From: Gemmatimonadaceae bacterium
Lineage (GTDB): Bacteria; Gemmatimonadota; Gemmatimonadetes; Gemmatimonadales; Gemmatimonadaceae
DNA length: 64,000 nucleotides
Direction of reading: 5' to 3'
NCBI GenBank assembly: GCA_030835125.1
Contig: JAUQWM010000032.1
Location: 1 to 64,000 of the forward strand
The notes beneath the pieces were generated by a model. It did no database searches. It worked only from the letters and a program-made list of their open reading frames with translations, and was not told the DNA's origin. Positions 5,730 to 23,535 of this stretch are shown here, piece after piece (position 1 is the stretch's first letter; each line of letters opens with the position of its first letter). A program made the position numbers and the translations under genes.

Positions 5730-5887
5730 GTAAGGGATGTGTCGCATGAATGGTCGGGCCGGCTGGGGGGAATCCTTCGCTGGGCGATGCCCATGGCCCG
5801 CCCGCCCCTCTGAAATCCTGTTTTCCTGGCCCTTGCCTCCCGAACGCCCAACACGGATTGTATGCGCTTCCTTGCACCGGACTCTTC

Positions 5888-7483
5888 ATGACTCAGCAGC
5901 AAGAACAGTGGGGAACCAAGCTCGGTGTCATCCTGGCCGTGGCCGGTTCTGCGGTCGGGCTGGGCAACTTTCTCCGGTTTCCGGGCCAGGCCGCGGCCAA
6001 CGGCGGCGGGGCGTTCCTCATCCCCTACTTCGCAGCCCTGCTCCTGCTGGGCATCCCGATCGGGTGGGCTGAGTGGGCCATGGGGCGGTATGGCGGGAAG
6101 AAGGGACTGCATTCCGCTCCTGGCATCATGGGCTTGATCGGGAAGGGGTCCGGCGCGCGCTACCTCGGCGTCATCGGCGTCCTCATCCCGTTGGGCGTCT
6201 CGTTCTACTACGTGTTCATCGAGGCGTGGACCTTCGGGTACTTCCTCAAGTACCTCACCGGTGGCATCGGAGTGGACACAGCTGCCCCCATCGCCGACCA
6301 GGCAGCAGCCGCGTCCAGCTTCTACACGACGTTCACCGGTTCGGAGCAGGATGGAGTGCTGTTTACCGGTGACTCCAAGCTGACAATCCTGTCCTGGATC
6401 ATCGTCTTCGCCCTCAACATCTTCTTCGTGTTCCGGGGATTGTCGAAGGGGATCGAGAAGTTCTGCTCGTACGCCATGCCCGCCATGGCGGTTCTGGCCG
6501 TGATCGTGCTCATCCGCGTCCTGACTCTGGGCACACCCGACCCGACCTTGCCCGACCAGAACGTCGTGAACGGACTGGGCTACATGTGGAACCCGGACTA
6601 TTCGCGACTGGGCAACTTCCAGACGTGGCTGGCCGCGGCGGGCCAGATCTTCTTCAGCCTGTCGGTCGGGTTCGGCGTCATCATCAACTACTCGTCGTAC
6701 ATGAAGCGGAACGACGACGTCGCCCTGTCCGGCCTGACGGCATCCGCCACCAATGAGCTGTTCGAGGTCGGCTTCGGCGGCATGATCACGCTGACCGCGG
6801 CGTTTGTCTTCCTGGGCGTCAGTGGTACCACCGCGGCCGTCGCAACGGGATCATTCGGCCTGGGCTTCTCGACCCTGCCGGTGGTCTTTGCGCACATGGG
6901 TGGCGCCGGCAACCTGATCGGCGCGGCCTGGTTCTTCATGCTCTTCCTGGCGGCCATCACCAGTTCGCTCTCGATGTACCAGCCCGCCGTCGCGCTGGTG
7001 AAGGAGTCCCTCGGATGGAACCACGGAAAGGCGACCGGTTCGATCGCCCTCCTGGGAACCGTCGGGGCGATCCTCACGCTGTGGTTCACCCAGGGCGGTG
7101 CATTCTGGAGCACGGTGGACTTCTGGGTCGGTACGTTCCTGATCTTCGTGATGGCCGGCGTCCAGATCATCTACTTCTCGTGGGTCTTCGGGATTGACCG
7201 CGGCTGGAAGGAGATCCACGCCGGGGCATCCATCCGGATCCCGCCGGTCTTCAAGTTCATCATGAAGTACGTCGCGCCGACCTACCTCATCGTGGTCTTC
7301 GTCGGATTCTGCATCCAGAACCTCGGAGCGTCGATCACGGCGGCATGGGCCAGTACGGGATCACGCGTGGCGATCATCGTTATCGTGGCGACCCTGCTCC
7401 TGCTGCTGATGGTGGTGCGCGCCGGCGAGGCCCGCTGGAAGCGTGAAGGGATCGACCTGAACGACACTCAACCCGCCGACTGA
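5888..7483 (+). CDS. Sodium-dependent NSS-family transporter (MetP/LeuT type)
   Basis: 531-residue integral membrane protein of the neurotransmitter:sodium symporter family. The first helix carries the unwound sodium/substrate motif GSAVGLGNFLRFP followed by NGGGAFLIPY, as in LeuT. At least eleven hydrophobic helices follow. The start at 5888 is chosen because the protein then begins about 10 residues before the first helix; the open frame extends upstream without family sequence. The stop codon sits 10 bases before a 42-residue single-helix protein of the MetS type, so the pair resembles the MetP-MetS methionine/alanine importer of Corynebacterium. The substrate is therefore probably a neutral amino acid, but this is by analogy. 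Confidence 0.92.
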   Translation: MTQQQEQWGTKLGVILAVAGSAVGLGNFLRFPGQAAANGGGAFLIPYFAALLLLGIPIGWAEWAMGRYGGKKGLHSAPGIMGLIGKGSGARYLGVIGVLIPLGVSFYYVFIEAWTFGYFLKYLTGGIGVDTAAPIADQAAAASSFYTTFTGSEQDGVLFTGDSKLTILSWIIVFALNIFFVFRGLSKGIEKFCSYAMPAMAVLAVIVLIRVLTLGTPDPTLPDQNVVNGLGYMWNPDYSRLGNFQTWLAAAGQIFFSLSVGFGVIINYSSYMKRNDDVALSGLTASATNELFEVGFGGMITLTAAFVFLGVSGTTAAVATGSFGLGFSTLPVVFAHMGGAGNLIGAAWFFMLFLAAITSSLSMYQPAVALVKESLGWNHGKATGSIALLGTVGAILTLWFTQGGAFWSTVDFWVGTFLIFVMAGVQIIYFSWVFGIDRGWKEIHAGASIRIPPVFKFIMKYVAPTYLIVVFVGFCIQNLGASITAAWASTGSRVAIIVIVATLLLLLMVVRAGEARWKREGIDLNDTQPAD

Positions 7484-7493
7484 GGAACCGACC

Positions 7494-7622
7494 ATGACCG
7501 CAGGTGGATGGGTGACCATGATCCTGTCGCTGACCTTCGTCTGGGGCGGCGTGATCTGGTGCTTCCGCAAGGTCCTGCAGAGCCCACAGGACGAGAAGGC
7601 TCCTCCGGGCTACGGTCCGTAG
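7494..7622 (+). CDS. metS: MetS-type small subunit of the NSS transporter
   Basis: A 42-residue protein that is easy to miss. It has one transmembrane helix (about residues 6-25, containing WVTMILSLTFVWGG) followed by a short charged, proline-rich tail ending in PPGYGP. The start codon has a GAGG Shine-Dalgarno that overlaps the stop of the NSS transporter, and the gap between the genes is 10 bases. In the MetP-MetS system the small subunit is required for transport by the large one; this is family knowledge. Position, size, topology and the WGG-V-WC pattern fit that family. A terminator follows directly, so the two genes form a complete operon. Confidence 0.85.
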   Translation: MTAGGWVTMILSLTFVWGGVIWCFRKVLQSPQDEKAPPGYGP

Positions 7623-7644
7623 GTTTCAGCAACGGGGCACGAAG

Positions 7645-7675
7645 AAATGGCCGGCGCGGAAGCGTCGGCCATTTT
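7645..7675 (+). terminator. Rho-independent terminator of the NSS/MetS operon
   Basis: AAATGGCCG (7645-7653) pairs with CGGCCATTT (7666-7674). The stem extends inward with one mismatch to a GGAA tetraloop and ends in TTTT. It lies 22 bases after the small-subunit stop codon. Confidence 0.85.
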
Positions 7676-7739
7676 CGTTCGAGGCGCAGCATCACCAGCC
7701 AGCCGGACGTGCCAGCCGCGCGATCGCAGCGCTCAGCGT

Positions 7740-8750
7740 TCAGCCTTCGGCGGTCCTCTGCCACATGACCCCGTACCCGAGTCGTTCACGCAGCATCCCG
7801 CTCGGCGGATCGAAATCGCCGGCCGACCGGCAGATGTCGCGGAGGATCGACCCCGCGCCGGTCATCAGCGCGTCGACATCGATCCCGGTGCGGACGCCCA
7901 TCCCCTCGAACAGCGCGACCAGCGCCTCGGTGGCGATGTTGCCGACCATGTGCCCTCCGGAACCCTCGGTGAGGCTCGCGGCCACGCTGCCGCCGACGCC
8001 GCCCACGGACGCATCGAAGATCCGCACGCCCTTTTCCCACGCCGCGTACGCGTTCGCGATCCCCGCGCCGTACCGATCGTGCAGGTGCACACCGACCCGT
8101 TCGAGGCCGCCCAGCGATTCCCCCACGGCATCCAGGACCTCACCCACCCGCGCCGGGTTGGTCGTGCCGTTGGTATCCGCGAGCGTGAGGTAGTCGCAGC
8201 CGTGGTCCAGGAGCAGCGCTCGACTCAGGCGCACCACCGTCTCCACGTCCGAGGGCTCGGTGGCGACGGCCATGTCCTGGAACGCCGCCGAGAGGTGGGC
8301 GCGGACACGGTATCCGTGGTCACGGCCGCGCTGCGCGACATGGGCCGCCATGGCCAGCACGTCATCGACCGCACGGCCATAGAAGTTCCGGCGCGCATGG
8401 GCCTCGCTCGCGGTGGGGAAGACGGCCACGACGTTCAGCCGCGTGGCGAGGAAGCGCTCGAAACCCTTGTCGTTAGGTACGAGGCCGGACAGTTCCAGCC
8501 CCGGAGTGACGGCAGGGTCGAGCCGGCGCCCCAGCGCGTCCGACAGCGCCATCTGAGGCGTCCCGCTCGGGGAGACGAACGACGCGACCTCGACATGCCG
8601 CACGCCGGCGTCGATGAGCGACTCGACCAGGCGCACGCGCTGCTCCAGCGGCACGATGCGGGCGGCCGCGACGTCGGCGCCTCCCAGGTACTGGAGGCCG
8701 TCCCGCGGGGACATCTCGCAGATCTTCACGTCCGGGGAAAGGACCGTCAC
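7740..8750 (-). CDS. HMG-CoA-lyase-like protein without the catalytic cysteine
   Basis: 336-residue DRE-TIM metallolyase. The start is a GTG at 8750 with GGAG seven bases upstream. Conserved features are SPRDG (R16, D17), VEVASFVSP (54-61), DTNGTTNP (192-199) and HLHD (H222, H224), then GN with N271: the arginine and metal ligands of HMG-CoA lyase. The cysteine expected in GG-C-P-A-G-GN is serine here (S255, codon AGC at 7986-7988), and the following loop is about seven residues longer than in known lyases. The fold and metal site look intact, but HMG-CoA cleavage is uncertain. It may act on another acyl-CoA or be a diverged aldolase. The GNAT gene upstream is 68 bases away on the same strand. 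Confidence 0.82.
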   Translation of the reverse strand: MTVLSPDVKICEMSPRDGLQYLGGADVAAARIVPLEQRVRLVESLIDAGVRHVEVASFVSPSGTPQMALSDALGRRLDPAVTPGLELSGLVPNDKGFERFLATRLNVVAVFPTASEAHARRNFYGRAVDDVLAMAAHVAQRGRDHGYRVRAHLSAAFQDMAVATEPSDVETVVRLSRALLLDHGCDYLTLADTNGTTNPARVGEVLDAVGESLGGLERVGVHLHDRYGAGIANAYAAWEKGVRIFDASVGGVGGSVAASLTEGSGGHMVGNIATEALVALFEGMGVRTGIDVDALMTGAGSILRDICRSAGDFDPPSGMLRERLGYGVMWQRTAEG

Positions 8751-8818
8751 GTCAATGCTCCGGGCTGTTCGTCTTGCCAACGCGCGCCCGGAACATAGAC
8801 GCGGAACGCCGTGCGCCG

Positions 8819-9373
8819 TCAGTGCGCCAGGCTGTCGAGTGCGCGCGTCATGCGGACGAACCGGAGCGGAACGCCGTCGGGAAGGACGTCGGTCACGTCC
8901 TCGACCTGTTCGAAGCCGAGCGTCGAGTAGAAGGGCACGCCCGGCAACGTGGCCATCAGGGTCAGCGCCCGGAATCCCGCTGCCCGGGCGGCCTCCTGGC
9001 ACTCCTCGAACAGCCTGCGACCTACCCCACGCCGTGCCGCCGAAGGGGCCACGAAGAAGGCCCGCAACCTCGCCGGCTCGGTGGCGGGATCGAGGAAGGA
9101 TGGCGTGCCGACTCGGCGCTGGTCGCCACCGTACAGGGCATTGCGACGGCTCCAGCCCCCACAACCGGCGAGTGCGCCATTCAGGGTCGCCACGTAGTAC
9201 GTCCGGTCCTCGATGAGCGCCGTGTCCACGCCGAAGACGTGCCGGATCGCCGACTCGACTTCGCGGTCGCTGTAGAATCCCCGGCTCAGCTGCCTCGCCG
9301 ATTCGCTGATCAGCGGCGCGAGGTGCGGGACGTCCGAGGGCGTGGCGACTCTGAGGAGGATTCCACCCTGCAT
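8819..9373 (-). CDS. GNAT-family N-acetyltransferase
   Basis: About 184 residues. Motif A of the GNAT fold is seen as LRAFFVAPSAARRGVGRRLF, with the acetyl-CoA-binding R-R-G-V-G-R, and motif B as FYSTLGFEQVEDV near the C-terminus. The first residues LLRVATPSDVPHLAPLI are the typical first strand and helix. Start choice is uncertain: 9373 puts the start six residues before the fold begins, while 9403 adds ten residues; neither has a clear ribosome-binding site. Acceptor substrate unknown. It is divergent from the serine hydrolase at 9502 and lies upstream of the lyase-like gene. Confidence 0.85.
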   Translation of the reverse strand: MQGGILLRVATPSDVPHLAPLISESARQLSRGFYSDREVESAIRHVFGVDTALIEDRTYYVATLNGALAGCGGWSRRNALYGGDQRRVGTPSFLDPATEPARLRAFFVAPSAARRGVGRRLFEECQEAARAAGFRALTLMATLPGVPFYSTLGFEQVEDVTDVLPDGVPLRFVRMTRALDSLAH

Positions 9374-9501
9374 GCGTGACGATCGATCGTGGAAGTCCCA
9401 CATTAGCCCGGCGACCCCCTGCCAGAAAGGGTCGATTCTTCCTTGCCGGCACATGGCGAGGTCGGCCATGTTCGGGAACCCCTGGCCCGCGGAGCCCCCA
9501 G

Positions 9502-11109
9502 ATGCGGATCGCATTTACCCTGGTTGTCGTTATGCCGGCTCTGGCCGTGGCCCAGGCGCCCGCCCTGGACTCGGTGGCCCATCGCGTCTTCGCGTCCTGG
9601 AATCGGGAGACCCCGGGCTGCGCCGTCGGCGTGGCGCAGGGCGGCAGGACGCTGCTCGAACGAGGCTACGGCATGGCCAACCTCGAGTCCGGCACGCCGA
9701 TCACCGCGGCGACGATCTTCGAGTCGGGATCCGTCGCCAAGCAGTTCACGGCCGCCTCCATCCTGCTGCTGATGTCCGATGGCAAGCTCCGCCTCGATGA
9801 TCGCGTGCAGCGTTTCGTGCCGGAGCTCCCGGAGTACAGCCGACCCCTGACGATCCGGCACCTGCTGTCGCACACCAGCGGCTTGCGGGAGTGGAGCAAC
9901 CTGGTCGCGCTCGACGGCTGGCCGCGAGGCACCCGCGTCCATACACAGCACGAGCTGCTCGACGCGGTCTTCGCCCAGCAGGCCCTCAACTATCCGGTGG
10001 GGGACCACTACTCGTACACGAACTCGGGGTACGGCCTCCTGGTGACCATCGTGGAGCGGGCGAGCGGCATGCCCTTCGTGCGGTTCACCGAGGAGCGAAT
10101 CTTCAAGCCATTGGGCATGACCCGCACGTCCTGGCGCGACGACTTCGAGCGGATCGTGCCGGGACGCGCGCAGGCCTATGAACGCCGCGGGCCCGGGTGG
10201 GCACTGGCCATGCCGTTCGAGAACGTGATCGGGCCCGGCGGGATGCTGACGACGGTGGGCGACTGGCTCCGGTGGAACGACGCGCTCGACCGGAAGACGT
10301 TAGGCAGCTGGCTGGTGGACTCGCTCGAGTCCCGGGCCACGCTCACCTCGGGCCGGACCATCACCTACGCCATGGGCGTGGTGGTCAACGACTGGCGCGG
10401 CGTCCGGGAGGTCGCCCACAGCGGCTCCACCGGCGGGTACTCCACCTACCTCATGCGGGTGCCGGCGCGTGGCATCTCGGTCGCCGTGCTGTGCAACGCC
10501 GCCGGCTCGAATGCCACCGCGTTCGCGCGGCAGATGGCCGAAGCGCTGATCCCCGACTTGGCCCCGGTGGCGCGCCCGGACACGGTGGCGGTGGATGGCG
10601 CGGCCGCGGCCGGGCTGTCGGGAGTCTATCGATCGTCGCGGACGCACGAGCCGTTGTACGTGGGCGTGGCCGGACCCGGCGCCGGGCGAGGCGCAGCGCC
10701 AGTCCGGGGCCTCCGGGGTGGCGGGTTTCTCGTCGGCAACAGCCGTGTCCTGGCCTCCGCACAGCCAGGCCGCCCGTCCTCACTCCGGGTTGTCCAGGGC
10801 GCCGACACGGTCGACTTCGTTCGGGTTGGCGATGCGCCGTGGAAGCCTGCGTCGTCGGACCTGGCCGCGTTCGCCGGACAATTCGGGTCGCGCGAGCTGC
10901 GGGCCACCTGGACGGTCGCGGTGGACAGTGGCCAGCTCACGCTCTCGTCGCGCCGTGGCCAGCGCATTCCACTCGTGCCGGCCTACCCGGACGCGTTCAC
11001 CGCGCCGGGACTGGGTACCGTGTGGTTCACGCGGGAACCCTCGGGGCGGGTGACCGCGCTGCACCTGAGCTCAGCGCGGCTGTGGAACCTCGGACTTCCC
11101 CGTCGCTGA
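9502..11109 (+). CDS. Secreted serine hydrolase, class C beta-lactamase family
   Basis: 535-residue exported protein; signal peptide about residues 1-19 (cleavage near AVAQA). The serine-hydrolase (Pfam Beta-lactamase) domain has S77-V-A-K80 as the nucleophile motif, Y172-T-N174 as the second motif, and H306-S-G in place of KTG. This pattern is typical of esterases and D-aminopeptidase-like peptidases more than of true lactamases. About 170 C-terminal residues form an extra beta-rich domain. The start at 9502 begins the signal peptide and has GGAG upstream. An in-frame TTA codon occurs at about 10300 inside CGTTAGGC. Substrate unknown. Confidence 0.88.
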   Translation: MRIAFTLVVVMPALAVAQAPALDSVAHRVFASWNRETPGCAVGVAQGGRTLLERGYGMANLESGTPITAATIFESGSVAKQFTAASILLLMSDGKLRLDDRVQRFVPELPEYSRPLTIRHLLSHTSGLREWSNLVALDGWPRGTRVHTQHELLDAVFAQQALNYPVGDHYSYTNSGYGLLVTIVERASGMPFVRFTEERIFKPLGMTRTSWRDDFERIVPGRAQAYERRGPGWALAMPFENVIGPGGMLTTVGDWLRWNDALDRKTLGSWLVDSLESRATLTSGRTITYAMGVVVNDWRGVREVAHSGSTGGYSTYLMRVPARGISVAVLCNAAGSNATAFARQMAEALIPDLAPVARPDTVAVDGAAAAGLSGVYRSSRTHEPLYVGVAGPGAGRGAAPVRGLRGGGFLVGNSRVLASAQPGRPSSLRVVQGADTVDFVRVGDAPWKPASSDLAAFAGQFGSRELRATWTVAVDSGQLTLSSRRGQRIPLVPAYPDAFTAPGLGTVWFTREPSGRVTALHLSSARLWNLGLPRR

Positions 11110-23130: not shown

Positions 23131-23178
23131 TCAAGCAGCGACGCCGACCGGGCAGGTTTGCCGGTCGGCGTCGCTTGA
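23131..23178 (-). terminator. Terminator of the tmRNA gene
   Basis: A perfect 14-bp stem (23138-23151 with 23161-23174) carries an outer TCAA/TTGA extension across a 3-base bulge, just past the tmRNA 3' end. The symmetry lets it work in both directions. Confidence 0.8.
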
Positions 23179-23180
23179 AG

Positions 23181-23535
23181 TGGAGGCGCGGGGATTCGAA
23201 CCCCGGTCCGAAGAAGGATCGACCACAGCGTCTACGTGCGTATCTCACCGTTCAGGGTCTCCGGAAACTGGCCGATGAGCCGCCGATTCCCGGACAAGCC
23301 TTCTTTCATTTCGCCCGTCGCCAGAAGGCGTAGCGCCGGACTATCCCGATATTGCGATACCCACGGCGCCGCCTCGGGCGGGCTTCACCATGGGCAGGCG
23401 GTAACCCGAAGGTTACGCAGCCAGTGCCAGGTTGTTGTTGGCAGTTAAAGCGTTTCCCGAGTGTTTAACCAGGGCTCAGGAGTCCTGGGCACGCTGCCAC
23501 AGCTTCACCGACCCCGTCGAAGCCAAGTCGCCCCC
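23181..23535 (-). ncRNA. ssrA: Transfer-messenger RNA (tmRNA)
   Basis: One-piece tmRNA of about 355 nt. The 5' end GGGGGCG pairs with the 3' end CGCCTCC(A) to form the acceptor stem; the terminal CCA is encoded. The T-arm GGTTCGAATCC is present. The tag reading frame on the minus strand (23442 to 23413) encodes ANNNLALAA followed by TAA, a classic proteolysis tag. The tRNA-like 5' sequence GACTTGGCTTCGACGGGG is also typical. The RNA, with SmpB, rescues stalled ribosomes and tags incomplete proteins. The smpB gene is not in the window. Confidence 0.96.

Follow-up and report, generated by a model that had tools for sequence, protein, structure and literature searches.

Introduction

In HMG-CoA lyases a cysteine acts as the general acid, and its replacement strongly slows the enzyme. 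This loop cysteine is treated as a mark of HMG-CoA lyases, and yet genomes are annotated with the name whether or not the residue is there. Within the window, by which we mean the whole stretch of 64,000 nucleotides of Gemmatimonadaceae DNA that was analysed, one gene encodes a protein resembling HMG-CoA lyases with a serine at the position of this cysteine. The question arises whether its product is an ordinary HMG-CoA lyase, a working relative with an altered active site, or an enzyme that has ceased to function.

The gene carries an intact reading frame with a GTG start and it lies on a 156 kb contig of a 4.48-Mb genome (G000) that is 99% complete. The features of the gene and its neighbours are listed in Table 1. 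Scans for promoters and terminators over positions 7400-9600 gave no match. Elsewhere in the window, a tmRNA gene was detected on the minus strand at 23178-23535 (150 bits).

Table 1. Features of the metallolyase gene and adjoining genes, in window coordinates; residue equivalences refer to human HMG-CoA lyase
Feature	Position	Strand	Basis
HMGL-like DRE-TIM metallolyase gene, 336 aa	7740..8750	-	PF00682, NF004283, AlphaFold2 model
GGAG, Shine-Dalgarno-like, 7 bases 5' of the GTG start	8758..8761	-	sequence
Arg16 and Asp17 (human Arg41, Asp42), kept	8700..8705	-	alignment
7-residue insert after RDGLQ (residues 21-27, YLGGADV)	8670..8690	-	alignment
Glu54 (human Glu72), kept	8589..8591	-	alignment
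His152 codon at catalytic Tyr167 position	8295..8297	-	alignment
Residues 158-166 (QDMAVATEP) replacing the G-CPYEG segment after strand 5	8253..8279	-	alignment
His222-x-His224 metal ligands (human His233, His235), kept	8079..8087	-	alignment
Ser255 codon AGC at catalytic Cys266 position	7986..7988	-	phmmer, MAFFT
Extended loop, residues 256-270 (VAASLTEGSGGHMVG), +7 relative to human HMGCL	7941..7985	-	alignment
Asn271 metal ligand (human Asn275), kept	7938..7940	-	alignment
GNAT acetyltransferase gene, upstream of the metallolyase gene, same strand	8819..9514	-	Pfam, synteny
Sodium-dependent transporter (SNF-type), convergent neighbour in both species	5750..7483	+	Pfam

Family Assignment and Predicted Fold

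The protein matches PF00682 with 95.6 bits, the Pfam cut-off being 29, and this was its sole Pfam match at E 0.001, a level at which PF03328 (CitE-like) did not appear. Against NF004283, the NCBI model for hydroxymethylglutaryl-CoA lyase, it scores 209.6 bits and remains under the curated cut-off of 246. The six top-scoring solved sequences in phmmer searches were all HMG-CoA lyases, and the lyase score of 137.6 bits compares with 38.3 for other DRE-TIM members.

An AlphaFold2 model built on 47 aligned sequences (mean pLDDT 89.2; less confident at the extended loop, with block means of 80 and 68 for residues 251-270) predicts a TIM barrel with an RDG and HxH metal site in which R16, D17, H222, H224 and N271 are all present. 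When the model was compared with solved structures using VIA-align, the eight best rows were HMG-CoA lyases (Z 37.0-40.6, 1ydn giving 40.6 and human 2cw6 giving 40.0) and the next neighbour below them was a methylthioalkylmalate synthase (Z 31.1); Foldseek agreed that HMG-CoA lyases are the nearest structures. The barrel is shared with the solved lyases of human (2cw6/3mp5), P. aeruginosa (2ftp), B. subtilis (1ydo) and B. melitensis (1ydn), at Z 38.6-40.6 and 31-34% identity, together with the metal ligands and the equivalents of Arg41, Glu72, Ser75, Arg165 and Asp204. Unlike these enzymes, the protein carries Ser for Cys266 and His for Tyr167, its loop is longer by seven residues, it has an insert after DGLQ and it has lost CPYEG. 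The A. baumannii HMG-CoA lyase 6nds, titled with CoA and 3-methylmalate, also has the same fold (Z 37.0, 29% identity).

Rv2498c of M. tuberculosis, a CitE-like (R)-HMG-CoA lyase, is described as cleaving HMG-CoA despite having no sequence similarity to the classical lyases (PMC6689899). That enzyme belongs to PF03328, unlike the protein considered here, and G000 contains a single match to PF03328, weak and partial (35 bits).

In the tree, the protein and its ortholog from a second species lie among the HMGL-like rows on a long branch of their own (1.54; support 99/100), placed at an unresolved fork below 53 of them. Two residues that define the HMG-CoA lyases are replaced in the protein and its score falls short of the curated one; we therefore class it as an HMGL-like DRE-TIM metallolyase and do not call it an HMG-CoA lyase.

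These comparisons also bear on whether the substrate could be a non-CoA or much smaller compound, in which case the protein, like others of the DRE-TIM group, would be an aldolase or a condensing enzyme and not an acyl-CoA lyase. Remodelling around the active site, with the insert after DGLQ and the loss of CPYEG, would suit such a role, as would the ADT and DTNG strings, which we take to be reminiscent of condensing enzymes, and the structures ranking next after the lyases are those of alkylmalate synthases and hydroxy-oxovalerate aldolases (Z about 30). We nevertheless consider it improbable, given that HMG-CoA lyases are clearly closer both in bit score and in structure (Z 37-41 as against 31) and that G000 has one aconitase-family gene, so that no LeuC is evident to follow a leuA-like step. 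With just this one aconitase-family gene, a role as leuA itself is unlikely. Since the metallolyase gene is the only PF00682 gene in G000 and the aconitase-family gene is also single, neither leuA nor leuC is recognisable, and the organism probably lacks the usual pathway of leucine synthesis.

Kept and Replaced Residues of the Active Site

A review names Arg41, Glu72, Tyr167 and Cys266 as the lyase residues most critical for catalysis, and Asp42, Asn275, His233 and His235 as the metal ligands (PMC6941031). An earlier note on this DNA had stated that the metal and arginine residues were kept, and alignment bears this out, with D17, H222, H224 and N271 falling on the human ligands, and the catalytic R16 and E54 on Arg41 and Glu72. 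The other two of the four critical residues are replaced in both copies of the gene, Cys266 by Ser255 and Tyr167 by His152. The assignment of S255 to the catalytic cysteine, likewise proposed earlier, was reached by two methods: in the phmmer alignments residue 255 falls on the cysteine of GGCPY or GGCPF in the human, Pseudomonas, Bacillus and Brucella lyases, and MAFFT puts it at human C266. The following loop is indeed about seven residues longer, as had been claimed, with 15 residues from GG to GN as against 8 in the human enzyme, and 16 (+8) in the second species. The change of Tyr167 to His152, the loss of CPYEG and the seven-residue insert after DGLQ had escaped the earlier note; relative to HMG-CoA lyases, three active-site loops are altered.

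Among 51 other HMGL-like rows, column 266 holds Cys in 49 and His in two, and the 24 Gemmatimonadota HMGLs tabulated apart from the query pair all have Cys. Cys and Tyr occupy columns 266 and 167 in all 80 viral-contig relatives. Chance can be excluded as the source of Ser255, because the cysteine is present in 49 of the 51 rows and in every one of these viral-contig relatives. Column 167 is more variable (Tyr in 29 rows, Ser in 11, Thr in 7, Gly and Val in two each), and the loss of Tyr167 on its own says little, since Tyr occurs in just 29 of the 51 rows and is also missing from Cys-bearing relatives. Histidine at this position was found in none of the 51 and is therefore confined to the query pair. 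Seven HMGLs from the same family (L004, L011, L012, L015, L033, L034 and L047) keep Cys266 and carry Thr at the place of Tyr167.

A Second Species

A second Gemmatimonadaceae species of the same genus (G001) carries a 67% identical gene. The codon at the Ser255 position is AGC there also, and a sequencing error at position 7988, which the earlier note had raised as a possible cause of the serine, is ruled out by this agreement with an independent genome. His152, the loss of CPYEG and the insert after DGLQ are common to both species.

The gene is under purifying selection, since dN is 0.25 and dS 0.89 for the pair (NG86, 311 codons; dN/dS about 0.28), and nucleotide differences number 152 at third codon positions as against 74 and 51 at the others. 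Thirteen active-site positions (R16, D17, E54, S57, R150, H152, T189, D192, H222, H224, S255, N271 and E275) are identical in both species, compared with 67% identity overall. The extended-loop residues E262 and H267 are shared as well, and their conservation, like that of H152, is weak evidence because the type is represented by two sequences. In favour of a decaying or catalytically dead relative are the loss of two catalytic residues and the faster evolution of the gene compared with its neighbours, the SNF transporter and amidohydrolase genes being 82% and 73% identical between the species. The dN/dS ratio, the reading frame intact in both species and the retention of all metal ligands together with the Arg and Glu argue against decay, which we regard as very improbable.

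The block common to both species comprises genes for a YtkA-like protein, an amidohydrolase, a 946-aa protein, the SNF transporter, the metallolyase and a GNAT protein; in G001, the GNAT match consists of 51 residues at a contig end and an nhaD gene lies between it and the metallolyase gene. This synteny rules out a contaminant contig. The neighbourhood gives no pointer to the substrate. In the second genome, an HMGL fragment (L058:1-450; G001:C36) lies beside CoA-transferase and tricarboxylate-receptor-like frames and, judged by eye, looks like a contaminant.

Leucine Breakdown in the Host Genome

The protein could alternatively be an ordinary HMG-CoA lyase that serves leucine breakdown in this organism, with the serine, if more slowly, or His152 replacing the thiol. 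It is, after all, the sole PF00682 gene of a 99% complete genome, and the closest non-sister relative in our set is a plasmid lyase (L186) adjoining a gene annotated as an acetyl/propionyl/methylcrotonyl-CoA carboxylase alpha subunit. A carboxyltransferase of G000 (L064; L071:8648-10300) has methylcrotonyl-CoA carboxylase beta as its best solved relative (404.6 bits). However, this carboxyltransferase is encoded close to methylmalonyl-CoA mutase and MeaB genes and it occurs in 161 of 177 family genomes, most of them lacking an HMGL, which is present in any form in 26 of the 177 (E 1e-30); given this location and wide occurrence, it does not tie the metallolyase gene to leucine.

The acyl-CoA dehydrogenases are also unhelpful to an ordinary lyase. 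There are eight genes (nine matches) in G000, and for the three that were compared with solved structures the best relatives were a general acyl-CoA, a SCAD-like and a short/branched-chain enzyme, with isovaleryl-CoA dehydrogenases scoring lower; the other five were judged by eye. A search of G000 for CoA_trans (PF01144) found no gene. The genome evidence on leucine breakdown is thus ambiguous and, with two catalytic residues replaced in the protein itself, we consider an ordinary HMG-CoA lyase unlikely.

A Cys-less Clade on Plasmids

All seven plasmid proteins examined from another clade (L048, L189, L203, L204, L205, L206 and L208) carry GGHP in place of GGCP and a longer loop, the loop motif being GGHPxxxxYG, whereas L207, included for comparison and 42% identical, has GGCP. 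They resemble the Gemmatimonadaceae pair in lacking the cysteine and in the longer loop, but they have His where the pair has Ser, their loop is extended by four residues, CPFEG is kept and Val stands at position 167 in the two rows tabulated. Four annotated neighbourhoods of this clade contain enoyl-CoA hydratase/isomerase and CoA-transferase genes, followed in three of the four by an AMP-binding or acyl-CoA ligase gene.

The possibility that our protein is a member of the His-type clade was rejected, because its matches to the members reach at most 111.1 bits as against 171.5 for the best Cys-bearing relative, and the tree separates them (100/100). As judged from sequence, the thiol has thus been replaced in one further clade at least, and there too the loop is longer. 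Since these His-type relatives lack it, the cysteine is not strictly required for membership of this branch of the superfamily.

Proposed Reaction

The explanation that we prefer, with a probability of roughly 0.55, is that the gene encodes a functional TIM-barrel lyase which descends from the HMG-CoA lyase lineage, depends on a divalent metal and has had its proton-transfer site rebuilt. It is likely to perform a metal-dependent C-C cleavage like that of HMG-CoA lyase, and its preferred substrate is probably not HMG-CoA itself, because several of the differing segments flank the active site. The metal and Arg16 would hold and polarise a 3-hydroxy acyl-CoA, or a related 3-hydroxy acid, the hydroxyl proton would be taken by a base and the C2-C3 bond would be broken in a retro-Claisen step. 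In place of a loop thiol, the donor of a proton to the resulting enolate would be His152, one of two residues of the extended loop (His267 or Glu262) or water, and Ser255 would do no more than position this donor; the choice of donor is a guess based on the residues present.

The earlier note suggested that a different or a slower reaction is possible. This idea gains from the two replaced critical residues and the three changed loops, and among the sequences searched none that shares the loop is a proven HMG-CoA lyase. It loses some force from the ambiguous leucine context and from the Cys-less His-type relatives.

More tentatively, the protein may represent a new DRE-TIM lyase activity confined to one Gemmatimonadaceae genus, with thiol-free protonation of the enolate via His152 and the extended serine/histidine loop. 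If this is true then, taken together with the His-type plasmid clade, the acid of the mobile loop would have been replaced at least twice, with a longer loop each time, as substrates changed. The natural Ser and His enzymes would provide ready-made tests of the role of the thiol and would draw attention to enzymes that are probably mis-annotated and act on other substrates, although the consequence for this bacterium alone would be small.

Distribution

The Ser type occurs in two of 179 family genomes, both belonging to one genus (g1), and in no other genome of a 395-genome draw from the phylum, where G001 was absent from the matches. A narrow-pattern scan, including DGLQYLGG, of the contigs of 84,980 species (genome_contigs) matched only the G001 contig; the patterns are very specific and distant Ser-type relatives may therefore exist outside the family. 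The same narrow query found no relative among viral contigs. The best plasmid matches to the protein are about 35-38% identical, and three phage records match it at no more than about 35%. Among the papers searched, none was found to deal with lyases mutated from Cys to Ser or Ala, or with a Gemmatimonadota protein of this kind.

Two records labelled Acinetobacter phage MD-2021a (CAKLQH020000001.1 and CAKLQF020000001.1, about 330-380 kb) carry an HMGL gene adjoining accC, and they look more like bacterial or plasmid DNA than phage. HMGL-like proteins are encoded on 173 IMG/VR viral-contig stretches, and the 80 that were kept (L102-L181) all have GGCP and Tyr167. The occurrence of HMGCL in magroviruses is already published (PMC10160649). 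Fourteen viral-contig HMGLs that were sampled formed one clade at 100/100.
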